Below are positions 11,292-34,894 of a stretch of 48,177 nt of DNA, piece by piece. The position numbers were made by a program, and so were the translations under genes. The first letter of the stretch is position 1, and each line of letters opens with the position of its first letter. The notes below the pieces were generated by a model, which saw only the letters and a program-made list of their open reading frames with translations, ran no database searches and was not told where the DNA came from. The stretch spans positions 1-48,177 of the forward strand of contig CAMKRY010000005.1 in the NCBI GenBank assembly GCA_946415345.1. The letters are read 5' to 3'. This DNA comes from an uncultured Bacteroidales bacterium. GTDB taxonomy: Bacteria; Bacteroidota; Bacteroidia; Bacteroidales; UBA932.

Positions 11292-12644
11292 ATGGAATAC
11301 ACGAGCGTCTACTTTCTCGGAATCGGTGGCATCGGCATGAGTGCCATCGCCCGATACTACAAGTTCAAGGGCCTGGAGGTCAGCGGCTATGACCGCACGC
11401 CTTCCGACCTGACCGCCGCCCTCGAGCGGGAAGGCATCCCCGTGCACTACGAGAGCCGGCCGGACCTGATTCCTGCGGACACGGCCAGGACCCTCGTCGT
11501 CTATACGCCCGCCATCCCCAAGGACTTCCCGGAATTCCTCTACGTCCAGGAGAAGGGCTACCGCGTCATCAAGCGCTCCCGCATGCTCGGCGAAATCGCC
11601 GCCGGACAGGACTGCCTCGCCGTCGCCGGCACCCACGGCAAGACGACGACCTCGACGCTCACCGCTCACATCTTCACGCAGACCCAGGGCTGCACCGCCT
11701 TCCTCGGCGGCATCTCCAAGAACTACCGGACCAACCTCCTCACCAGCCACAATCCCGTGGTCGTCGCCGAAGCGGACGAGTTCGACCGCTCCTTCCTGCA
11801 GCTCTTCCCGAAGATCGCCGTCATCACTGCCATGGACGCCGACCATCTCGACATCTACGGCGACCTCAACCAGTACCAGCAGGCCTTCCGCGACTTCGCG
11901 GCGCAGGTGAGCGGCACCCTCATCGTCAAGAAGGGACTCCCCCTCACCGCGGCCGACACCAAGGCCACGCTGAAGACCTACCATGCCAGCGATCCCGACG
12001 CGGATTTCCACGCCGAGAATGCCCAGGCCGATGCCTGCGGCCATTTCACCTATGACCTCCGCTGGCCGGGCGGCCTCCTGAAGGGCGTCCGCGTCGGCAT
12101 CCCCGGCCGCATCAACGTCGAGAACAGCATCGGTGCTGCCGCCATCGCCCTTACCTACGGACTGGATCCCGAGGCCGTAAAAGCCGCCATCGGCTCGTTC
12201 CAGGGCGTGCTGCGCCGCCTTGACGTCCACCTCAACACGCCGAAACTCTCCTACATCGACGACTACGCCCACCATCCCGCCGAGCTCGCCGCCGCCATCG
12301 CCTCAATGCGCGACATCTTCCCCGGCCGGAAGCTGACGGCCATTTTCCAGCCGCACCTCTACACCCGTACGCGGGACTTCGCGGCGGAATTCGCCAAAGC
12401 GCTCAGCGCCGTCGACAAGCTCATCCTCCTCGACATCTACCCCGCCCGGGAGCTGCCGATCGAGGGCGTCACCTCCGAGATTATCTTCGACCGGGTGACC
12501 GCGCCCGAAAAGGTGCTCCTCAATAAGGAAGAGCTGATGGATTACCTGGCCAAAGAGCCCGTCGACGTGCTCGCCTCGTTCGGTGCGGGCAACGTGGACC
12601 GCTATATCCAGCCCATCACAGAATTATTGCAATCCCGCTTATAG
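11292..12644 (+). CDS. murC: UDP-N-acetylmuramate--L-alanine ligase
   Basis: 450 aa, YFLGIGGIGMSAIARYY, GTHGKTTTSTL, YAHHPAEL. Confidence 0.95.
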   Translation: MEYTSVYFLGIGGIGMSAIARYYKFKGLEVSGYDRTPSDLTAALEREGIPVHYESRPDLIPADTARTLVVYTPAIPKDFPEFLYVQEKGYRVIKRSRMLGEIAAGQDCLAVAGTHGKTTTSTLTAHIFTQTQGCTAFLGGISKNYRTNLLTSHNPVVVAEADEFDRSFLQLFPKIAVITAMDADHLDIYGDLNQYQQAFRDFAAQVSGTLIVKKGLPLTAADTKATLKTYHASDPDADFHAENAQADACGHFTYDLRWPGGLLKGVRVGIPGRINVENSIGAAAIALTYGLDPEAVKAAIGSFQGVLRRLDVHLNTPKLSYIDDYAHHPAELAAAIASMRDIFPGRKLTAIFQPHLYTRTRDFAAEFAKALSAVDKLILLDIYPARELPIEGVTSEIIFDRVTAPEKVLLNKEELMDYLAKEPVDVLASFGAGNVDRYIQPITELLQSRL

Positions 12645-12647
12645 ACC

Positions 12648-13448
12648 ATGGAAAACGCCGGACGGAACAATCGAAAAACGATCTTCGCTCTCGCAGGCCT
12701 CGCACTGATGGCCCTTGTATTCGGCTTTGTCCTTCTGCTCGGCCGTGCCGAACGCAGGGGTAGCCGTTGTACGGGCCTGACCGTGGAGGTTCGCGATTCG
12801 AGCGAACACCGTTTCGTGACCGCCTCGGACGTAGAGACCTATCTCTCGGACGAAATCGGCGCCGTCGAAGGAAAAGATCTGGACAGTCTCAACCTCGCGG
12901 ACATCGAGCACCGGCTCAACCGGGGCGTCGGCATCCTCCGCTCGGAGGTATGGCTGACCCCGGACGGTCAGCTCCATGCCCGCATCGACCAGCGCATCCC
13001 CGTCGTCCGTTTCCAGGGTCCTGAGGGCGGATACTATTGCGACGCCGAGGGTTATATCCTCCCGCTGAACGCCAACGCCATCCGCGTCCAGACAGTGGAC
13101 GGAGCCCTGGGCTACATACCCGCCGAAGGTTTCTCCGGCTTTCCGGAGGACGGACCCGGTAAGGAGTGGCTCGACAGGATGCTGGGCCTCGTCGCCGTCA
13201 TCCGCCAATCCCCGGCCTGGTCCGGCAACATCGCCCAGATCCACGTGGCAGAGGGCAACGGGGAACTGACGCTAATCCTGCGCGACCGTCCCGAGCGCTT
13301 CCTCTTCGGCCAGCCGGAGCATGCTCAGGCCAAGCTTGCCCGCATGGGACAGTATTTCAGGAAGGTGCTTCCGCAACTGCCGGAAGGCGCCGCCTACAAG
13401 AGCGTGAACGTAAAATATAAAGGTCAGATCATCTGCCGAAACAAATAG
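12648..13448 (+). CDS. ftsQ: Cell division protein FtsQ
   Basis: 266 aa, N-terminal TM and POTRA-like region, position between murC and ftsA. Confidence 0.82.
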   Translation: MENAGRNNRKTIFALAGLALMALVFGFVLLLGRAERRGSRCTGLTVEVRDSSEHRFVTASDVETYLSDEIGAVEGKDLDSLNLADIEHRLNRGVGILRSEVWLTPDGQLHARIDQRIPVVRFQGPEGGYYCDAEGYILPLNANAIRVQTVDGALGYIPAEGFSGFPEDGPGKEWLDRMLGLVAVIRQSPAWSGNIAQIHVAEGNGELTLILRDRPERFLFGQPEHAQAKLARMGQYFRKVLPQLPEGAAYKSVNVKYKGQIICRNK

Positions 13449-13453
13449 AAGTT

Positions 13454-14950
13454 ATGGAAGAGAAACACATTGCCGCCATCGACCTGGGCTCCTCGAAATT
13501 CGCCGTGACCGTCGCACGGATCAGCGGGGACGACATCCAGATCGTCTACTACAAGGAAACGCCCTCGGACGGTATCCGCAACAGCGAGGTATTCAACCCG
13601 GGCAAGACGCGCCAGAAACTGGAAGACGCAATCCGCGAAGCCGAGCGTGAGCTGAACATCAAGATCATGCAGGTCTGCGTGGGTCTGCCGCGCTATCCGG
13701 TCACGCAGGAGATTGCGACCGGCCGCTTCGACCGCACCGAACCCAACAGCTGCATCTCCGAAGAGGAGATCGAAACGCTCAAGAGCCTCGCCCTGGAAGC
13801 CTATCCGCTCAGCAATCCCGAGACCGACGAACTCTACGGCGCCGTCGCCCAGTCCTTCTCGACCGCCGAGTACCACCAGCTCGTCGAGCAGGATGTGATC
13901 GGCACCGTCTCGCGCACCCTGGAAGGCAATTTTAAGGTCTTCATCGGCCGCCAGCACGCGGTCAACACCATCGACGTTCTCTTCAACCAGCTCCATATCG
14001 CCATCGCCCGGATGTACTTCCTTCCGGATGCCGTGGCCAAGGCCGTCCTCACCAACGAGGAGATGGACAGCGGTGTCGCCCTCATCGATTTCGGCGGCGG
14101 GGTGACCTCGGTCAGCATCTATCACGGCAACATTATGCGTTATTACGGCGCGATTCCCTTCGGCGGCAAGGTCATCACGTCCGACATCAAGGCGGAATGC
14201 TCCATCTCCGAAGAACTCGCCGACAACATCAAGAAGGGCTTCGGCTCCTGCATGCCGTCCAAGCTCCAGAATCTCAGCGAAAAGACCCTCCAGATCCAGT
14301 ACGACGACCGCAACGGCATCGAGGTCCGCGTCAGCTACCTCGCCGAAATCATCAGCGAGCGCACCCGCGAGATCGTCGACGCCATCCTCTGGCATATCCA
14401 GCAGAGCGGCTTCGCCAACAATCTCCGCAGCGGCATCGTCATCACGGGCGGCGGCGCCAACCTCATGGGCCTCAGCTTCCTCCTCAAGGAACGCTCCGGC
14501 TTCAACGTCAAGATGGGGTATCCGCGCCATCTCTTCTCCGCCGAGGGCTGCTCGGGCATCTATGAAACCAGCGCCACCGCGGCGATGGGCATGATCCTGG
14601 CGGCCAAGAACGACCATCTCCCGGACTGCGTCGATCTGCCGGAATTCGATCCGGAGGCCCTGCGCAACGCCGGCCTCGAGGTGGTCAGCCCGGAAGAGGA
14701 GGAAACCGTCGAAGAAACCACCGAGACTCCCGCCACCGAGTGGAACGGGGAGTTCGAGCAGGGTGAAACCGGCAAACTCATCGAGGATGAAGAGTTCGGC
14801 GAGCCGGTCAAAAAGGAGAAAGTCAAGAAGGAAAAGCCGCAGCGGAAACGTTGGAAAGGTCCGCAGATCAAGACGCCGGAATCCCTCAACATCTTCTGGA
14901 AGAAGGTCTCCAACACCTTCGTGGATATCTACGACGAAGCAACCAAATAG
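13454..14950 (+). CDS. ftsA: Cell division protein FtsA
   Basis: 498 aa, AAIDLGSSKFAVTVARI, ALIDFGGGVTSVSIY, GIVITGGGANLMGL. Confidence 0.95.
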   Translation: MEEKHIAAIDLGSSKFAVTVARISGDDIQIVYYKETPSDGIRNSEVFNPGKTRQKLEDAIREAERELNIKIMQVCVGLPRYPVTQEIATGRFDRTEPNSCISEEEIETLKSLALEAYPLSNPETDELYGAVAQSFSTAEYHQLVEQDVIGTVSRTLEGNFKVFIGRQHAVNTIDVLFNQLHIAIARMYFLPDAVAKAVLTNEEMDSGVALIDFGGGVTSVSIYHGNIMRYYGAIPFGGKVITSDIKAECSISEELADNIKKGFGSCMPSKLQNLSEKTLQIQYDDRNGIEVRVSYLAEIISERTREIVDAILWHIQQSGFANNLRSGIVITGGGANLMGLSFLLKERSGFNVKMGYPRHLFSAEGCSGIYETSATAAMGMILAAKNDHLPDCVDLPEFDPEALRNAGLEVVSPEEEETVEETTETPATEWNGEFEQGETGKLIEDEEFGEPVKKEKVKKEKPQRKRWKGPQIKTPESLNIFWKKVSNTFVDIYDEATK

Positions 14951-16590: not shown

Positions 16591-16618
16591 GTCATTACCC
16601 GGCTCGTCCGGGTAATCT
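16591..16618 (+). repeat. REP-like palindrome GTCATTACCCGGCTCGTCCGGGTAATCT
   Basis: ATTACCCGG/CCGGGTAAT stem, framed by GTCAT...ATCT. Confidence 0.75.
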
Positions 16619-16622
16619 CTCG

Positions 16623-16670
16623 CGCGTTTGCATGAAATCTGCCTCTCACAGCACTCTAACTGCAAACGCA
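16623..16670. repeat. Tandem inverted-repeat module 1 (GCGTTTGCA-N28-TGCAAACGC)
   Basis: Perfect 9-bp arms, 46-bp span; same architecture as module 2. Confidence 0.7.
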
Positions 16671-16705
16671 TTCCCAAAAACTCCCTTGTTCGCCAAAATC
16701 CGCCT

Positions 16706-16753
16706 CGCGTTTGCAGAAGACCAGACTCCTGTAGCATTCTAAGTGCAAACGAG
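16706..16753. repeat. Tandem inverted-repeat module 2 (GCGTTTGCA-N28-TGCAAACGa)
   Basis: 46-bp span; shares AGCAyTCTAAsTGCAAACG with module 1. Confidence 0.7.
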
Positions 16754-16780: not shown

Positions 16781-17365
16781 TTATAGAGATTTCCGCAGCT
16801 CTACGAAGTAAGAGACATTGAGATAGGTGGTGCCGAACATCGCCTTTCTATTTAAGCCTTCCTCGTGGACGTGGCCGAAAATGTGGTACTTGGGGCGGGC
16901 GCTGGAGATGTCCAGGAAGAGCTGTTTGCAGCCTTGGTCTCTATCGAGATAGCTATAGGCCGGGCCGTGAGTTATGAGGAAGTCGATTCCAGCCGGCAAT
17001 GATGCCGGGGCTTCCAAATAGGGTCTGGCTGGGACGCTATAGAACTGAATACCATCGTATTCTATGCCTTCGTTCTCGAGATAGACAATGCCGCCAGGGA
17101 CCAGTTTTCGGGCACGGGACGGTTCGATGTTGAAGATGCGGTCATGATTGCCTGGCACAAAGATTCGGAGTTTTGCAGGAATGGCTGCATACCAAGCAAA
17201 GAAGTCCGTCAGATCTGACGGATTGAAGCCCTCACAGGCATCCCCGGCGCAGATAAGTATGTCCGCTTCAGAGGGCACAGCCATTCTCCGATACATTCCA
17301 TGAGTATCAGAGAATGCAAATATGATGTGTCCCTTGAATCCTAATAGCATATGCCTATGAGACAA
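16781..17365 (-). CDS. Calcineurin-like metallophosphoesterase
   Basis: 194 aa, FAFSDTHGMYRRM, CAGDACEG, FVPGNHD, LITHGPAYSYLD, HIFGHVHEEG. Confidence 0.9.
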   Translation of the reverse strand: MSHRHMLLGFKGHIIFAFSDTHGMYRRMAVPSEADILICAGDACEGFNPSDLTDFFAWYAAIPAKLRIFVPGNHDRIFNIEPSRARKLVPGGIVYLENEGIEYDGIQFYSVPARPYLEAPASLPAGIDFLITHGPAYSYLDRDQGCKQLFLDISSARPKYHIFGHVHEEGLNRKAMFGTTYLNVSYFVELRKSL

Positions 17366-17386: not shown

Positions 17387-17805
17387 TTAAGAATTGCGAA
17401 GAATACCAATGACCTCTTTATAAAGCTCTTTTAAATACTCAGCAAAGCTTTTGTCTATAACACAAACCTTCCAAAACTCATCGGTGCCGGTTGTCAAAAA
17501 GCGGCGATCATTCGGCGTCTTGTAGGCCGGCCACCAACGCGATTGTTTGTAACCTAGTCGAGAATAACGATTCCAAGTTTTCTCAGGGAGAACATCCCCT
17601 TCATTTACATCGTTATTTGATATTCCATAGATGTTACTGCCATCCCCTTCTGTATGGAAATGAAAAGTAGATTTCTTCTGCTCAGGAATAGACATCCTTA
17701 TGGATAGGAACTGATAGGAATAGTCTTCAGAATAAGTTATACCTTCTTCCTCACAGAATGCTCTGAGGATTGGAGAGATAGGCAACAATTCGCGCAGGAG
17801 CTGGT
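17387..17805 (-). pseudogene. Probable C-terminal remnant of a second PDDEXK-type nuclease-family gene
   Basis: Open frame with no ATG (ORF track starts at TTG; in-frame TGA at about 17803-17805). LPEKTWNRYSRLGYKQSRWWPAYKTPNDRRFLTTGTDEFWKVCVIDKSFAEYLKELYKEVIGIL resembles the C-terminal layout of the adjacent PDDEXK protein. Confidence 0.4.
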
Positions 17806-17829: not shown

Positions 17830-19029
17830 CTATAAATCAGAGAAACCAGGAATGGTTTCTGTCGCTGCGATTATCTCATCAATTAGCTTTCCGATTTCGT
17901 CAATAAACTTCCCTGACAAAATATCTTCAATAGTTTGAGCATCGTAGAGCCAGCGATAAACCCCTGGTAGCCACTTTGACCCGAACGGGAAGGTCTTTCC
18001 CGTTCCATCAGGTAGAATGCTTAAAGGTATAACATTAGCACATTTGTTATTGTCATCATCTTTAATAAAAATTGCAATCCAATAATTGCTTTGTTTCGTT
18101 TCGGGCAAAATAGCGATTTCAGCATTCTTCCATTCTTTCTTTCTAAGAGAGAGCGTACTCTGTTTCGCTCCGCACAAAAAACCAGGATCAATGATTAACT
18201 CAAGATTACGGCTGGATGCAAACTTCTGGAAGTCTGCCTTAAGCTCGTTTTCTATAACAGTCTGTTTATAAGCATCCACATTGGTCAATAGCTTAGTAAC
18301 GACAGAGGGATTCTTTCTCATTATTGCAATAATCTCCTCGCTGCTGTTTTCCATATTATTAGCCAAATTAAGTATTAACGATAGATACTGTCTTAATGTT
18401 TCACGTATTAGTGGTTTATCATATGATATTGAAAGGCACTCTTTAATCCACAACTGGATTTCAGTATTATAAGCTATTGGGAAATAATGCTTCCCTGATT
18501 CTACGGTTGTATTTGCCGATTTTGATGAATAGTCACTTGCATCATGTGCATTCAAGCAAAGATAAAGAATAAGGAAATTTCCTTCTCCATACTTTTTCTT
18601 TGCATAATTATAATACCGAACAAGTTGATTCTCTTGCTCTTGAGCATATATTTTATTCTCAACGATGATTGCTTTATCGCGTTTTTTTGTCTCGATGATG
18701 ATGTCAATACGTCCACCGTTTTCTTTTTCATCTGTTAAGGGACCTATTGATCTTTCCACTTCAACTATTGCTTCTTCTGAATCAAAATCAAATTGACACA
18801 CACGATTATTAATCAATCGAAGGAAGATAGCGAGCGGTTTATTCTCAAGTCCATGAGAGCCGTCATGCCTCAACAATTCTGCAAGAAATGCCGAATGAGT
18901 TTTTGTTTCGTTTGCAGAAAGACCTAATACCTCGAAAACATTGAAGAACTCTCCTCTTAATAGTTGCTCTTTAAGCTGTATTCGTTCTTTTTCAATAACA
19001 TTCTTGATTTGTTCAAAAAATGAATTCAT
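17830..19029 (-). CDS. PD-(D/E)XK nuclease family protein
   Basis: 399 aa, GEFFNVFEVLGLSANETKTHSAFLAELL...GRIDIIIETKKRDKAIIVENKIYAQEQENQLVRYYNYA (D...ExK core); AT-rich relative to flanks. Confidence 0.8.
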   Translation of the reverse strand: MNSFFEQIKNVIEKERIQLKEQLLRGEFFNVFEVLGLSANETKTHSAFLAELLRHDGSHGLENKPLAIFLRLINNRVCQFDFDSEEAIVEVERSIGPLTDEKENGGRIDIIIETKKRDKAIIVENKIYAQEQENQLVRYYNYAKKKYGEGNFLILYLCLNAHDASDYSSKSANTTVESGKHYFPIAYNTEIQLWIKECLSISYDKPLIRETLRQYLSLILNLANNMENSSEEIIAIMRKNPSVVTKLLTNVDAYKQTVIENELKADFQKFASSRNLELIIDPGFLCGAKQSTLSLRKKEWKNAEIAILPETKQSNYWIAIFIKDDDNNKCANVIPLSILPDGTGKTFPFGSKWLPGVYRWLYDAQTIEDILSGKFIDEIGKLIDEIIAATETIPGFSDL

Positions 19030-19156: not shown

Positions 19157-20200
19157 TCAACTATTATCCGGAATTACCACCTCCGGGAAATGCTCGCGAG
19201 CTTTCTCCAAAGCAACGGCTTTGACCAGCTCGATGTCGTCGAGGTCGACGTAGTCGTCCAGGAGGTCCTCTTCACCAGACCAGCTTTGGACGGTGATTTG
19301 ATGATAGAGGGCGTCGTCTTCTGACAGTTCGTCAATTATGAGCGTCCAGCCCATGCCTTCGGCATCCAGGAACTCGAAGCACCATTCTCCCTCTGAAGCC
19401 CCCGGATACCATTCGTACATTGGCGGATCCTGTTCATTGTCCTCCCGCTCTTCGAACAAGGTCGTCGCCTTCCGGAAGTATCCCTTGTCCCCATTCCGTT
19501 CGACATTGATAACAAGCTCTCCATAGTTGTTCTCATAATAAGGGAAGCCTTTCGGCAGAATCATCTTATAATGATTGAGCACAATATCCAGGGGATGGAA
19601 GAGGATAATTTGGTCGCAGAGGTCCTCAGTTTCCGTGATGTACTGGATATCCCGGACCGTGGGCTGCCGGTGCTTCTTGAAGCCGTAATCAGATAGTTCT
19701 GAACAGACCACAATAACGATGCTCAAAGCATCTGCCAGAGACTTCAAGATACGAAGCACGCCATTCAGTTCTCTTTCACGGGAAGCGTCATCCAGCAGGC
19801 TGCCATCCACTGCCTGGACAGGCTCAATGATGACCATCTGGATGCCTTGCTGCTCAACCAGCCGGAATATCTGCTCAACGAGTCTTGCGATGGTAATGTT
19901 CGGCGTATCGTCGATATACACCGGATACACGGTCAGTTCTCGCGGAGCAACCTTGCCGTTCTTATAGGCCACGTCACCTACCTGCATTCTCATCAGCATC
20001 TCCGCTATCTTAGCACGGGTGCTCTGCAGCGCAAACAAGGCTACCGGTACTTTGTCTTTCGTTCCTTCCACAATGCAGTTTCCCAGCATATACTGCACCC
20101 GGCCGCCCCAGGAGCGCGATGCGACAAGAATCAGGTTACCGGGAGTCCAAGTCATCCCAAGAATCTCAGGACGATAATCAATCAAGTCTCTTCTATTCAT
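19157..20200 (-). CDS. DnaB helicase C-terminal-domain-like protein with degenerate catalytic motifs plus acidic C-terminal extension
   Basis: Start MNRRDLIDYRPEILGMTWTPGNLILVASRSWGGRVQYMLG; DnaB-like blocks VPVALFALQSTRAKIAEML, VYIDDTPNITIARL, GIQMVIIEPVQAVDG, RERELNGVLRILKSLADALSIVIVVCSELSD, ITETEDLCDQIILFHP. ORF-track start at 20488 is an overcall into the upstream gene. Confidence 0.8.
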   Translation of the reverse strand: MNRRDLIDYRPEILGMTWTPGNLILVASRSWGGRVQYMLGNCIVEGTKDKVPVALFALQSTRAKIAEMLMRMQVGDVAYKNGKVAPRELTVYPVYIDDTPNITIARLVEQIFRLVEQQGIQMVIIEPVQAVDGSLLDDASRERELNGVLRILKSLADALSIVIVVCSELSDYGFKKHRQPTVRDIQYITETEDLCDQIILFHPLDIVLNHYKMILPKGFPYYENNYGELVINVERNGDKGYFRKATTLFEEREDNEQDPPMYEWYPGASEGEWCFEFLDAEGMGWTLIIDELSEDDALYHQITVQSWSGEEDLLDDYVDLDDIELVKAVALEKAREHFPEVVIPDNS

Positions 20201-20202
20201 AG

Positions 20203-20523
20203 CTAAATGTCTTTGAATTTCGGGTTCATTTGCTTCACGGTCTCCAGAGCCTTCTCCATCAGAGCCGGATAATCTTCGTCGGTATAGTATCCGGTGATGA
20301 TCCCCGGGGTATGAACCTTCTCTTCCAGCAGGTCGACCGTATCTGGATGGTTCCACTGGAAGTTCCAATCCTCGTCGCAGTGGACCAGTTCTGCCGTCCA
20401 CGGATCTTGATGACGCCAGCGGAGATAGACGCACCAGTGGCCGCCTTCGCTGTCGATGAAGCAGTAATAGATCTGCGCCGGGCACCAATGCTCCAAGTCA
20501 ATATCCCATTTATTGAGTTCCAT
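20203..20523 (-). CDS. Hypothetical protein (106 aa)
   Basis: MELNKWDIDLEHWCPAQIYYCFIDSEGGHWCVYLRWRHQDPWTAELV..., tightly packed in the minus operon. Confidence 0.8.
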   Translation of the reverse strand: MELNKWDIDLEHWCPAQIYYCFIDSEGGHWCVYLRWRHQDPWTAELVHCDEDWNFQWNHPDTVDLLEEKVHTPGIITGYYTDEDYPALMEKALETVKQMNPKFKDI

Positions 20524-20845
20524 TATTGTTATTCAATTGATTAAAGTGCAAAACAGCCTCCTTGAAGGAGAAGAACTCAAGCTCTTCCGTATAGTCTTCA
20601 TAGAGGATATGACGATAAAAGTGGTCATCCCCTCGGTTGCCCATCATCTCGAATTTCAAATTGACTTTCCGGTCTTCGCCTAGTTGATATTCAAAGATGA
20701 GATCAAAAGAAAACATTTGAGGGTGGTCCTTGTATACGACCTTCACCACATGAATCTTTTCTACTTCTTCTTCAGTCAGTTCTGAGAACTCAGGTAAAGA
20801 GACTAGTAGAAGCTTCTCGTTTAAAGGGTATTTATTCATATTCAA
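20510..20845 (-). CDS. Hypothetical protein (111 aa)
   Basis: 14-bp overlap with downstream gene, same operon. Confidence 0.75.
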   Translation of the reverse strand: MNMNKYPLNEKLLLVSLPEFSELTEEEVEKIHVVKVVYKDHPQMFSFDLIFEYQLGEDRKVNLKFEMMGNRGDDHFYRHILYEDYTEELEFFSFKEAVLHFNQLNNNNGTQ

Positions 20846-20858
20846 TTAGGATATTTAG

Positions 20859-21311
20859 TTAATCACTCCATGTTATCATCTTCTCCGACAGCAGGCGCCA
20901 CAGGAGCATCCAGGCCTTGTCGAAGCGGAGCTGCTGCTCTTTGCAGATAAATCTCATACAGTGATGGTCTGGGCTGGGGATGCGGGAACGATTGCGAATA
21001 TTAACCTTGTAGGGAAACTTAAACCCGATCCCGATCCGCGCGTAGTCCACTTCCCCACCCTCTGCCAAGATGATATTGATGAGCCGGACGGCCAATTCCA
21101 TCTGCTTTCCATAATAGGGGCCGTTACGGATGTATGCCCGGTTCCGGAAATACCTGGCCATCGTGGTCAGCTTCGCTTTGAGTATAAAGAGCAGGTACTC
21201 ATAGTCCCAGTCTTCGTCAAAGGCGTTGATCCATTGCCGGCGGGCCCACTCACGGTGGTTCCTCAAATCCCGCACCCTGCGGGCATGACGATGTTTCTTC
21301 GTCCTTACCAT
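20859..21311 (-). CDS. Hypothetical basic protein (150 aa)
   Basis: MVRTKKHRHARRVRDLRNHREWARRQWINAFDEDWDYEYLLFILKAKL..., 3 bp from upstream gene. Confidence 0.75.
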   Translation of the reverse strand: MVRTKKHRHARRVRDLRNHREWARRQWINAFDEDWDYEYLLFILKAKLTTMARYFRNRAYIRNGPYYGKQMELAVRLINIILAEGGEVDYARIGIGFKFPYKVNIRNRSRIPSPDHHCMRFICKEQQLRFDKAWMLLWRLLSEKMITWSD

Positions 21312-21314
21312 AGC

Positions 21315-22103
21315 TTACTCTTCTCCATTTGGTTCAATGAACGAATACCGTTTCCCATCCCGGTCAGAAAGCAGCTGGTGGGTGATCCGGACCTCGCACC
21401 AGAAGTCATTCATACGGAGCAGGTCTGGAATCGAATAATTCTTGTGCGTGCAGAGGTCGTGGACGGCATGGCAGATGCAGATGTCTTTGAACTCCTCCCT
21501 TTTCAGACACCCTTCCGCCCAGCTCTGTCCATCATCCAGGAAGTTGTCTATTCCCAGCTCCTTGGGCGACATCCCGCGGTTGTGCATTATGCTGTAAGAT
21601 ACACCGCAGGAAGCGCATTCCGGGATGGCGGATTCCTCATAATAATCATACAGGATATCCATCATGGCAGGGAAGTTGGAGCCATAAGCATTGGGCCTGT
21701 TGTAGGGATCCTTCAGATCCTCGTCGGACCAATACAGGGAGCCATCCTCGTCGTTGTAGACAAAGCGCAGCGTACCCTCGACCATGATATCGTCGTCGAA
21801 CTCATGATCATAGCCGGTCTTGAGGAGAGCCTTATACAGCCGCAGGGTTTTGTCATGCATCTTCTGCGTCAGGTCGAGCAGGCGGTCGTTCACTTTCCTG
21901 AAAACCTCCAGTTCCTCGGGCGTGGCGCGGAACATCTCGTTGAGCAGCCGACAGCGCTCGCCAAGCAGCGTATCCAGTTGCTCCTTGGTTTGCTTATCGA
22001 GGTCCTGGATGCGAGCTCCGCAATAACGGTCTTCGACGTAGTGAACCATCGAGATGATTTTCTGTTCCAGACGATGAAGTTCTTTTACTTGTTTCTTGGT
22101 CAT
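21315..22103 (-). CDS. Hypothetical protein (262 aa), possible metal-binding cysteines
   Basis: MTKKQVKELHRLEQKI...PECASCGVSYSIMHNRG...DICICHAVHDLC; first gene of the operon, preceded by a TACCTTTG -7 box. Confidence 0.8.
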   Translation of the reverse strand: MTKKQVKELHRLEQKIISMVHYVEDRYCGARIQDLDKQTKEQLDTLLGERCRLLNEMFRATPEELEVFRKVNDRLLDLTQKMHDKTLRLYKALLKTGYDHEFDDDIMVEGTLRFVYNDEDGSLYWSDEDLKDPYNRPNAYGSNFPAMMDILYDYYEESAIPECASCGVSYSIMHNRGMSPKELGIDNFLDDGQSWAEGCLKREEFKDICICHAVHDLCTHKNYSIPDLLRMNDFWCEVRITHQLLSDRDGKRYSFIEPNGEE

Positions 22104-22141: not shown

Positions 22142-22156
22142 TGCCAAAATGTGGCA
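22142..22156. promoter_or_regulatory. Inverted-repeat operator A TGCCA-AAATG-TGGCA
   Basis: Perfect 5-bp half sites, 11 nt from the -7 box; same motif at 22722 and 22873. Confidence 0.8.
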
Positions 22157-22293
22157 GTTCATTAAAAGTGCAAAAAAAGCAACCATCCCATGAGATTCCC
22201 CCAATGGAATGGCTACAGAAACTAACAGGTAATTATACGAATCTAATTCTTCAAGAGAAATCAGATTTAGTACAAATTGCCAATTCTTGACTA

Positions 22294-22680
22294 TTAAGCT
22301 AACATAAAGTCTCCAGGTTCGATATCTGCAAGATGCTCCTGCACCTTTCGAAGAATAATTACATCATCGAATGTGTCACGGTTGTCAACGTAAGCCTGGA
22401 ATGCAAGGACTTCATCTGTGAATCTGTTAATTGTAAAGAAAAGACGAGCTCTCAGATCCTCAATACTTTGCTCTCCCATGAAGGGTATCTGCGTTTGATA
22501 AAGGTCCCAAGCGGCTTCGTTTACATCACAATGGTTGAATCCCAAAGCCATAATATCCGACATCCAAATGGACAGCAGGGCGAAATTACTACGGATATTG
22601 TCAACATGATCAGTCCCAGCCAGTCTTTTTTCAAGGCTGTTGAGGATGAGTTGTTTTACTTGTGGTTCTATCTCGTACAT
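22294..22680 (-). CDS. Hypothetical protein (128 aa)
   Basis: MYEIEPQVKQLILNSLEKRLAGTDHVDNIRSNFALLSIWMSDIMALGFNHCDVNEAAWDLYQ...; promoter with operator B upstream. Confidence 0.75.
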   Translation of the reverse strand: MYEIEPQVKQLILNSLEKRLAGTDHVDNIRSNFALLSIWMSDIMALGFNHCDVNEAAWDLYQTQIPFMGEQSIEDLRARLFFTINRFTDEVLAFQAYVDNRDTFDDVIILRKVQEHLADIEPGDFMLA

Positions 22681-22721: not shown

Positions 22722-22736
22722 TGCCAAAGCTTGGCA
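22722..22736. promoter_or_regulatory. Inverted-repeat operator B TGCCA-AAGCT-TGGCA
   Basis: Same half sites, same 11-nt offset from the -7 box as A and C. Confidence 0.8.
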
Positions 22737-22872
22737 TCTGCTAAAGAGTTTTGTGGTTGCATCTTCTTCCAAAGGTAAGTTTTTTTTCTCGTACTTTAAC
22801 AGATCGACAGCCAAATAGTGTTTCTTTCTTGACACCGCTACAATTCATGAGAGAAGACAGAATTAATTTAGC

Positions 22873-22887
22873 TGCCACTTTTTGGCA
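22873..22887. promoter_or_regulatory. Inverted-repeat operator C TGCCA-CTTTT-TGGCA
   Basis: Same half sites, 11 nt upstream of TATCTTTG (22899..22906) of the WYL gene. Confidence 0.8.
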
Positions 22888-22929: not shown

Positions 22930-23844
22930 ATGGCAAAGAACTACTTCGACAGGTATGTATGGCTGATTGAGTTGATCAACCGCCGCGGACCTATATCTTT
23001 TAAGGATATCAGCTACCTTTGGTCTCGGAGCTCGGTCAACACCCTCCGGGAGAACTACCTCCCGGAAAGGACATTCCACAACCACAGGGAAGCCATCCTG
23101 GAAATATTCGGCATCGAAATCAAATGCGACCGCTCCGCCGGCTACTATATAGCCAAAGGAGCCGACGAGGAAGCCGACGATGTCCGCAAATGGCTGCTGC
23201 ACTCCCTGTCCCTGAGCAACCTGCTCAACGAGACGAAGGATATGCGGGACCGCATCCTCTTCGAGAAGATCCCTTCCTCGCAGCAGTGGCTTTCCGTCAT
23301 CGTCAATGCCATGCGGGAAAGCAAGGTCATCTCGATGACCTACCAGAGCTTCTGGAGGGACGAACCCGACACCTTCACGGCCAAGCCTTACTGCCTGAAA
23401 CTCTTTAAGCAGCGCTGGTACATGCTGGCCAAAAGCGAAGGCTATGAGGAGCCGCGAGTCTACGCCCTCGACGAGCGGATGATGGATGTAAAGACGACTG
23501 ACGAGAAATATAAACTGCCGACAAAATTCAATGCGCAGAAGTACTTCTCCGATTATTTCGGCATCATCGTCGGTACCGATTGGGAGCCTCAAGAGGTGAA
23601 GATCCGCGTGGTCAACGACCAAGTCAAGTACTTTGATACACTGCCGCTTCACGATTCCCAGATGAAGGTCCTGGAAGGATCTGACGAGGAATATACTGTC
23701 TATCGTTATCACATAGCTCCCACCTTTGATTTCAAGCAGGAACTGCTCAGCCGCGGGCCCGCCGTCGAGGTTCTTGCACCGGAGGGATTTCGGGACGAGA
23801 TCAAAGGAGACATCGCCGAGATGGCAAAGCAATATGGCCTATGA
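22930..23844 (+). CDS. WYL-domain transcriptional regulator
   Basis: MAKNYFDRYVWLIELINRRGPISFKDISYLWSRSSVNTLRENYLPERTFHNHREAILEIFGIEI (wHTH), then WYL-like region (VISMTYQSFW...KPYCLKLFKQRWYMLA...RVYALDERM). ATG at 22930 preferred because it lies downstream of the promoter. Confidence 0.88.
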   Translation: MAKNYFDRYVWLIELINRRGPISFKDISYLWSRSSVNTLRENYLPERTFHNHREAILEIFGIEIKCDRSAGYYIAKGADEEADDVRKWLLHSLSLSNLLNETKDMRDRILFEKIPSSQQWLSVIVNAMRESKVISMTYQSFWRDEPDTFTAKPYCLKLFKQRWYMLAKSEGYEEPRVYALDERMMDVKTTDEKYKLPTKFNAQKYFSDYFGIIVGTDWEPQEVKIRVVNDQVKYFDTLPLHDSQMKVLEGSDEEYTVYRYHIAPTFDFKQELLSRGPAVEVLAPEGFRDEIKGDIAEMAKQYGL

Positions 23845-24335
23845 AAGACTTCGCAGCCATAGACTTCGAGACCGCCAATGAGTGCCGTTGCAGCGTATGC
23901 AGCGTCGGCGTTGTAATCGTCAGGGACGGAAAGATCGTAGACTCATTCTATAGCCTGATCCATCCAGAACCGGACTACTATCAGTGGTTCTGCCAACAGG
24001 TTCACGGCCTGTCGGAAGAAGATACCGATGACGCGCCCGTATTCCCACAAGTATGGGAAAAGATCGCGCCGATGATTGAAGGGCTACCGCTTGTCGCCCA
24101 CAATAGCACCTTCGATGAAGGATGCCTGAAAGAAGTATTCAGAGCCTATCAGATGGACTATCCCGATTACGAGTTCTACGACACTCTGTCTGCTTCCAGG
24201 GAGTATTTCGGCTACGATCTGCCGAATCACCAGTTGCCGACAGTGGCTGCCGCATGTGGCTACGACTTGACGAATCACCATCATGCACTAGCCGATGCCG
24301 AAGCGTGTGCGCATATTGCACTTCGGCTTCTTTGA
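23841..24335 (+). CDS. DnaQ-like DEDDh 3'-5' exonuclease, copy 1
   Basis: 164 aa, FAAIDFETAN...LPLVAHNSTFDEGCL...HHHALADAEACAHIA; ATGA overlap with WYL gene. Confidence 0.93.
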   Translation: MKDFAAIDFETANECRCSVCSVGVVIVRDGKIVDSFYSLIHPEPDYYQWFCQQVHGLSEEDTDDAPVFPQVWEKIAPMIEGLPLVAHNSTFDEGCLKEVFRAYQMDYPDYEFYDTLSASREYFGYDLPNHQLPTVAAACGYDLTNHHHALADAEACAHIALRLL

Positions 24336-34399: not shown

Positions 34400-34894
34400 T
34401 TACAGAATCCGGATGGCGATGTGGGCACAGGCTTCCGCATCCGCCAGGGCGTGGTGGTGACGGGTGAGATCAAAGCCACATGCGGCAGCAACGGTCTGCA
34501 GCTGGTGATTAGGCAAGCTGCAACCAAAATGCTTCCTGGATGCAGCCAGCGTATCGTAAAACTCATAATCCGGGTAATCCATTTGGTACACCTTGAAGAC
34601 CTCCTTCAGGCAGCCCTCATCAAACGGACTATTATGGGCTACCAACGGAAGGCCCTCAATCTTAGGCGCAATTTTTTCCCAAACAAAAGGAAACACTGGC
34701 GCATCTTCCGTGTCCTCTTCCGAGAGTCCGTGAACCTGCTGGCAGAACCACTGGTAGTACTCTGGTTCCGGATGGATCAGGCTGTAGAATGAGTCCACAA
34801 TCTCACCGTTCCGGACGATTACCACGCCCACGCTGCAGACGCTGCATCGGCACTCGTTGGCCGTTTCGAAATCTATTGCTGCAAAGTCTTTCAT
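34400..34894 (-). CDS. DnaQ-like DEDDh 3'-5' exonuclease, copy 2
   Basis: 164 aa, 145/164 residues identical to copy 1 by manual comparison. Confidence 0.93.
   Translation of the reverse strand: MKDFAAIDFETANECRCSVCSVGVVIVRNGEIVDSFYSLIHPEPEYYQWFCQQVHGLSEEDTEDAPVFPFVWEKIAPKIEGLPLVAHNSPFDEGCLKEVFKVYQMDYPDYEFYDTLAASRKHFGCSLPNHQLQTVAAACGFDLTRHHHALADAEACAHIAIRIL

Follow-up and report, generated by a model that had tools for sequence, protein, structure and literature searches.

A DnaB-like protein with replaced active-site motifs in a WYL-associated island of uncultured Bacteroidales, tentatively read as a replisome decoy

Inactive enzyme copies have already been proposed as immune decoys in bacterial conflict systems. 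Kaur et al. (2020; PMC7159879) describe MoxR-vWA ternary conflict systems that contain inactive copies of cellular enzymes, for which a decoy or dominant-negative role is proposed. A single-domain RecA-core protein of phage origin, mycobacteriophage D29 Gp65, has been reported to be functional, as an exonuclease (PMC4523182). Literature searches for an inactive DnaB or DnaE in defence turned up no direct example. The gene described here lies on contig CAMKRY010000005.1 of an uncultured Bacteroidales bacterium (GCA_946415345.1), of which the whole analysed stretch of 48,177 nucleotides is referred to as the window. Its product is like the DnaB C-terminal domain (PF03796) in fold, in sequence over residues 17-241 and in motif order, but it differs from DnaB in being without the N-terminal and linker region, in the change of four motifs and in an extra acidic C-terminal domain. 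The reading tentatively favoured below, with a confidence somewhat short of even, is that the protein is an ATPase-dead replisome mimic, serving as a decoy or dominant-negative effector in a conflict island that varies horizontally and is under WYL control.

The DnaB-like gene is encoded on the minus strand, with its ATG at 20200 and its stop at 19157, and the 347-aa product consists of a RecA core (residues ~17-245) followed by an acidic C-terminal domain (residues ~262-340). An earlier note on this DNA had given the extent as 19600-20200, which describes the RecA core but falls short of the whole gene. Pfam DnaB_C covers residues 17-241 (E=3.2e-18, 66.5 bits, cut-off 27), and when the family profile is compared with solved structures in the PDB, every significant match is a DnaB helicase (best E=4.8e-21). 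With the AlphaFold model (pLDDT 85, pTM 0.70), Foldseek ranks DnaB structures first (E about 3e-17); since the alignment supplied to this run contained added viral DnaBs and was biased towards the DnaB fold, the model confirms that fold and does not prove it. An earlier run with five family sequences only was poor (pLDDT 48), and DnaB was nonetheless the first structural match. Homology search thus succeeds in placing the protein in the DnaB/RecA family, and the Pfam, profile and structure matches agree with the earlier note that the chain follows the DnaB C-terminal domain with its motifs in order. The absence of the DnaB N-terminal domain is likewise borne out, since the alignment with DnaBs begins at the RecA core and both this domain and the linker are missing. 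The normal dnaB of the same assembly sits on another contig, and PADLOC profiles gave no match to the DnaB-like protein.

Table 1. Features of the island and of related loci. Positions are those of the window unless a locus (L number) is given.
Feature	Position	Strand	Evidence
Calcineurin-like metallophosphoesterase	16781-17365	-	Pfam; recurs in related islands
133-aa gene	17387-17788	-	Homologue in G642 island, 46% identity
PD-(D/E)XK nuclease (PDDEXK_4)	17830-19029	-	Pfam E=4e-37; PADLOC PDC-S26 E=2.5e-90
DnaB-like pseudo-helicase, 347 aa	19157-20200	-	ORF, PF03796, AlphaFold pLDDT 85, Foldseek DnaB E about 3e-17
C-terminal domain, residues ~262-340, predicted strands plus one helix, net acidic	19181-19417	-	AlphaFold pLDDT ~83-92, relatives, charge
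SELSD, residues 167-171, replacing SQLSR	19688-19702	-	Alignment
Degenerate Walker B VIIEPVQA, residues 123-130 (DnaB IIVDYLQL)	19811-19834	-	Alignment
Degenerate catalytic-Glu block FALQST, residues 56-61 (DnaB FSLEMS)	20018-20035	-	Alignment
Degenerate Walker A SRSWGGRV, residues 28-35 (DnaB ARPSMGKT)	20096-20119	-	Alignment
106-aa partner gene, directly upstream of DnaB-like gene	20203-20523	-	Adjoins DnaB-like gene in most relatives, 55-75% identity
111-aa operon gene	20510-20845	-	ORF, no Pfam match
150-aa operon gene	20859-21311	-	Homologues in UBA3290, RUG603 and G795 islands, 33-54% identity
262-aa gene, first in operon	21315-22103	-	Homologues in UBA3290, G661 and G914 islands, 37-55% identity
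Putative operator TGCCAAAATGTGGCAG within Bacteroidota-type promoter (-7 TACCTTTG) of the operon from the 262-aa to the DnaB-like gene	22142-22157		Pattern search
128-aa island gene	22294-22680	-	ORF, no Pfam match
Related palindrome TGCCAAAGCTTGGCA upstream of 128-aa gene	22722-22736		Sequence
Putative operator TGCCAAAAAGTGGCAG (minus strand) within WYL-gene promoter (-7 TATCTTTG)	22872-22887		Pattern search
WYL-WCX transcriptional regulator, start MAKNYF at 22930	22930-23844	+	Pfam WYL E=2e-13, WCX 3e-9
DnaQ-like exonuclease, overlaps WYL gene	23841-24335	+	Sequence; recurring WYL-DnaQ pair
Short DnaE-like ORFs	L100:13693-15918; L104:4554-5909 and 11861-13999; L075:5164-7371; L203:6808-8064; L122		

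The active site was compared with that of 53 normal Bacteroidales DnaBs aligned with the DnaB-like protein. Four residues that are invariant in 53 of 53 DnaBs are replaced: the Walker A Lys by Arg, the Walker A Thr by Val, the SLEM Glu by Gln, and the Walker B Asp by Glu. The Gln and Arg of SQLSR are changed to Glu and Asp, respectively, which is weaker evidence because the 53 DnaBs were chosen by that motif and these columns are partly conserved by construction. The Lys-to-Arg change is common to the closest relative, hRUG909 (Walker A GGRI, 68% identity over the available 62 aa), which argues that the motif change is not due to chance. The substitutions listed in the earlier note for Walker A, the catalytic Glu, Walker B and SQLSR are therefore real, but its statement that apparently every catalytic motif is substituted goes too far, as the Arg of the Lys-x-Arg finger (R235) is retained and only the Lys is replaced, by Val. 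Replacement of such Lys, Thr, Glu, Asp and Gln residues in P-loop NTPases normally abolishes hydrolysis. Loss of ATPase activity is strongly inferred from these changes, and canonical ATP hydrolysis is probably impossible in this protein and tight ATP binding probably absent. That the protein might instead be an active ATPase or helicase using unusual active-site residues could be argued from the retained R235 and from the RERE-bearing helix near the DnaB DNA-binding loop, which is also kept, but with five active-site residues exchanged, namely Lys, Thr, Glu, Asp and Gln, this is considered extremely improbable. A role other than unwinding, as suggested previously, is the natural reading given the replaced active-site residues and the missing N-terminal domain. 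Natural Walker A variation is also seen in a viral DnaB (L138), which reads ARPGMCKT (Gly to Cys) with SLEM intact.

The acidic C-terminal extension described in the earlier note is present and acidic, residues 246-347 containing 30 D/E vs 4 K/R, though it is predicted to be a folded domain rather than a disordered tail. The domain is kept across seven members of the DnaB-like family, and a Pfam scan of it returned no family. Homology between this domain and the 106-aa partner appeared likely by eye and was unsupported by profile comparison (probability 7%). Between G795 and RUG603 (L082 vs L061), the cores are 84-90% identical and the last 95 codons 48%, the C-terminal domain having apparently been exchanged.

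Whole-genome searches with the full protein returned mostly normal DnaB, so a C-terminal profile was needed to find relatives. Of 399 genomes sampled at the family level, 5 contained the gene by profile search, as did 8 of the 400 at the genus level, and among 395 genomes at the order level only the window's own copy was found. The DnaB-like family is thus small and, in the genome sets searched, confined to one family of uncultured Bacteroidales. Ten relatives are known besides the window, identical records being counted once; the named records RUG603, UBA3290, RGIG3514 and hRUG909 include uncultured Bacteroidales, at least one of them from goat rumen. No relatives came from scanning genome and viral collections with the single sequence, and viral scans that used the profiles of the C-terminal domain and of the 106-aa partner were equally negative, so a phage origin of the gene is not supported. 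In the tree, the DnaB-like family is separated from DnaB with full support, while the deeper order within the family is not resolved.

The motif states of these relatives vary. Walker A reads GGKS in RUG603, G795, G875 and G594, GAKT in G771, CGKT in UBA3290, CGAF in RGIG3514, and VARS in G642 and G914, in which the Walker B Asp is changed to His. Conservation of the substitutions among homologues, a check proposed in the earlier note, was not found: in UBA3290, RUG603, G795 and G771, Walker A still has its Lys and Walker B its Asp, and these variable states rule out a substitution set conserved family-wide. Since Walker A and B are intact in about half of the family, it does not represent one fixed pseudo-enzyme. 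The catalytic Glu is missing from all seven full-length proteins (Q, G, D, G, G, G and G at the SLEM position), as are the Arg of SQLSR and the Lys of the Arg finger; the truncated fragment from hRUG909, which has FAPEG here, may retain the Glu. Judged by the pattern of states rather than by the tree, the Walker residues would have been lost independently at least twice. These states bear on a further explanation, in which the ancestor kept Walker A and B and lost the Glu to become an ATP-locked ring, a switch that binds ATP without hydrolysing it, and the window copy was later reduced further. The four relatives that retain Lys and Asp without the Glu fit such a switch, but the Lys is lost in the window, hRUG909, G642 and G914, the first two having also lost the Thr/Ser, so ATP binding in these proteins would be absent or weak. 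As an account of the window protein, this switch is thought quite unlikely.

The stretch around the DnaB-like gene, bounded by ftsZ (61% GC) and ompH (60%), has a low GC content of 36-53%; in it, the gene is the last of an operon that begins with the 262-aa gene and continues with the 150-aa, 111-aa and 106-aa genes (Table 1). A Pfam scan of the 106-aa, 111-aa, 150-aa and 128-aa genes gave no match. The 106-aa partner is 75% identical to its hRUG909 counterpart, with dN well below dS, and the WYL-DnaQ pair is found again in related islands (77-83% identity). A second DnaQ-like gene is found in the window at 34400-34894 on the minus strand, whose identity to the island copy is 78% in nucleotides and about 88% in protein, and a two-copy 55-nt imperfect direct repeat (71% identity) lies at 16614-16751, between ftsZ and the island. 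A 16-bp palindromic operator, TGCCAAAANNTGGCAG (TGCCA-n5-TGGCA), occurs in exactly two copies in the 1.34-Mb assembly, as counted with a slightly looser pattern for which the reversed control gave 0. Both copies are in the island, one preceding the DnaB-like operon and the other the WYL gene, and both overlap promoters of the Bacteroidota type, for which the -7 consensus is TAnnTTTG. The UBA3290 island contains five operator sites at up to one mismatch where 0.1 is expected, one of which precedes its MoxR-vWA-DnaB-like operon. The palindrome, found before three transcription units, is probably the binding site of the WYL regulator.

In UBA3290, genes for MoxR and a vWA protein (DUF2201) belong to the operon of the DnaB-like gene; in G914 they lie near it, and in hRUG909 a vWA gene is located upstream. 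Neither gene is present in the islands of the window, RUG603 and G795, and a search for DUF2201/vWA gave no match in the window island or in its assembly, which is 56% complete. A constant MoxR-vWA linkage is ruled out, as MoxR or vWA is linked in only three loci. An IetA-like AAA gene is also absent from the window island; the UBA3290 island has an AAA ATPase matching PADLOC IetA profiles (L060:14704-16371, E=6e-29), which adjoins the WYL gene. That the window island is without MoxR, vWA or an IetA-like AAA gene counts against the decoy and conflict reading, as does the linkage of MoxR or vWA in no more than three loci.

A search for DNA polymerase III alpha, covering a small sample of ten non-randomly chosen genomes, found eight normal DnaEs that retain PDID[IV]DF and KMDFLGL and six extra, shorter DnaE-like ORFs, each lacking no fewer than two catalytic aspartates, the first and the third. 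For five of these six ORFs, a WYL gene is present in the locus (G344 with two, G351, G661 and G594). The dead DnaE-like gene of G351 and that of G344 each adjoin a DnaB-like gene of a different branch. These neighbours are motif-intact, so no operon was seen to combine a dead DnaB with a dead DnaE; this, too, counts against the decoy and conflict reading. The DnaE copies also bear on one of the two main rivals, in which the DnaB-like protein is a structural subunit or adaptor whose RecA core is a nucleotide-independent scaffold of the island machinery, presenting for instance its acidic domain to the MoxR-vWA chaperone, with no replisome target. Such an internal role would accord with the conserved pairing with the 106-aa protein, with the conservation and predicted fold of the acidic domain, and with the apparent exchange of that domain in G795, but it leaves unexplained why related loci recruited replication folds, DnaB and DnaE, specifically, and it is regarded as unlikely.

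The other main rival is gene decay, in which an accessory gene has lost its MoxR, vWA or IetA-like AAA system at this locus and its motifs are eroding. Three of the ten distinct relatives are broken, G875 by an in-frame stop, G594 by an internal deletion, and RGIG3514 as a chimera (L064:7953-8639) in which the DnaB-like gene is fused to the tail of the downstream RecA/KaiC-like gene (matching L061:9078-9989), a fusion that arose by recombination or deletion; because all three come from metagenome assemblies, assembly error is possible in each. These breaks count against the decoy and conflict reading and suit decay, as do the varying motif states and the absence from the window locus of the MoxR, vWA and AAA genes found in UBA3290. 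Selection speaks the other way. The most degenerate pair, G642 and G914, which belong to different species, have pN 0.028 and pS 0.091 (Fisher p=1.6e-4), and the window and hRUG909, both with Lys changed to Arg, have pN 0.185 and pS 0.776 (p=7e-13) in a test limited to 62 codons of the N-terminus. Over the whole gene, pN is 0.339 and pS 0.826 between the window and RUG603. Such simple counts reveal constraint while averaging over time; purifying selection is detectable on G642 and G914 and on the window N-terminus compared with hRUG909, where it is strong and follows the common Lys-to-Arg change. Decay must further contend with an intact frame of 347 codons, an intact operator and promoter, and the retained and constrained 106-aa partner. 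The earlier note had opposed a decaying gene to a conserved pseudo-enzyme, and neither description fits entirely: the gene is under purifying selection and is not simply junk, but the substitution set is not conserved and three relatives are broken. Decay and the adaptor role thus each fit part of the data, and decay is given a similarly low probability.

The decoy role is offered as a hypothesis, and the structural or decoy idea of the earlier note is backed circumstantially by the WYL gene and shared operator, by MoxR-vWA in some relatives, and by dead DnaE in WYL-linked loci. In the uninduced state, the WYL regulator would occupy the TGCCA-n5-TGGCA operator, which overlaps the promoters of the WYL gene and of the operon. 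Infection or damage may then provide a signal that relieves this occupancy, upon which the DnaB-like protein would be made together with its 106-aa partner. The DnaB-like surfaces, without a motor, would engage a helicase loader, a primase, a phage helicase or the DnaB ring, and the resulting decoy or dominant-negative subunit could slow replication of the invader. In some relatives, the MoxR AAA+/vWA pair may remodel or control the DnaB-like protein. Against this reading, Walker A and B are kept in half of the family, so the role does not depend on full motif loss, and the RecA core has no linker helix, which in DnaB aids hexamer assembly, so hexamer poisoning is not assured. A broader proposal, that the WYL islands of one Bacteroidales family keep dead DnaB and DnaE copies beside a DnaQ-like exonuclease as a pseudo-replisome defence that jams phage or plasmid replication, is more doubtful. 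With its operon and operator both defined, and with natural variants of one gene in which the motifs are either intact or lost, the island offers a compact test system.

Among known systems, D29 Gp65 resembles the window protein in having a DnaB-related RecA core and no N-terminal domain, whereas the window gene is encoded in a chromosomal island, is degenerate and has an extra domain. The PADLOC candidate defence protein PDC-S26 (PDDEXK_4), itself a candidate only, matches the neighbouring nuclease gene and not the DnaB-like gene. The window island differs from the MoxR-vWA ternary systems in that both MoxR and vWA are absent from it; the vWA proteins of related islands are of the DUF2201 type, and neither DUF2201 nor DnaB is mentioned in the main text of the description of these systems (PMC7159879). 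The likeness lies in the related islands of UBA3290, G914 and hRUG909, which contain the pair or its vWA part, the ternary systems combining a MoxR AAA+/vWA pair with variable, often inactive enzyme effectors. If the role proposed here holds, replication-fork proteins would be added to the list of targets mimicked in such conflicts.
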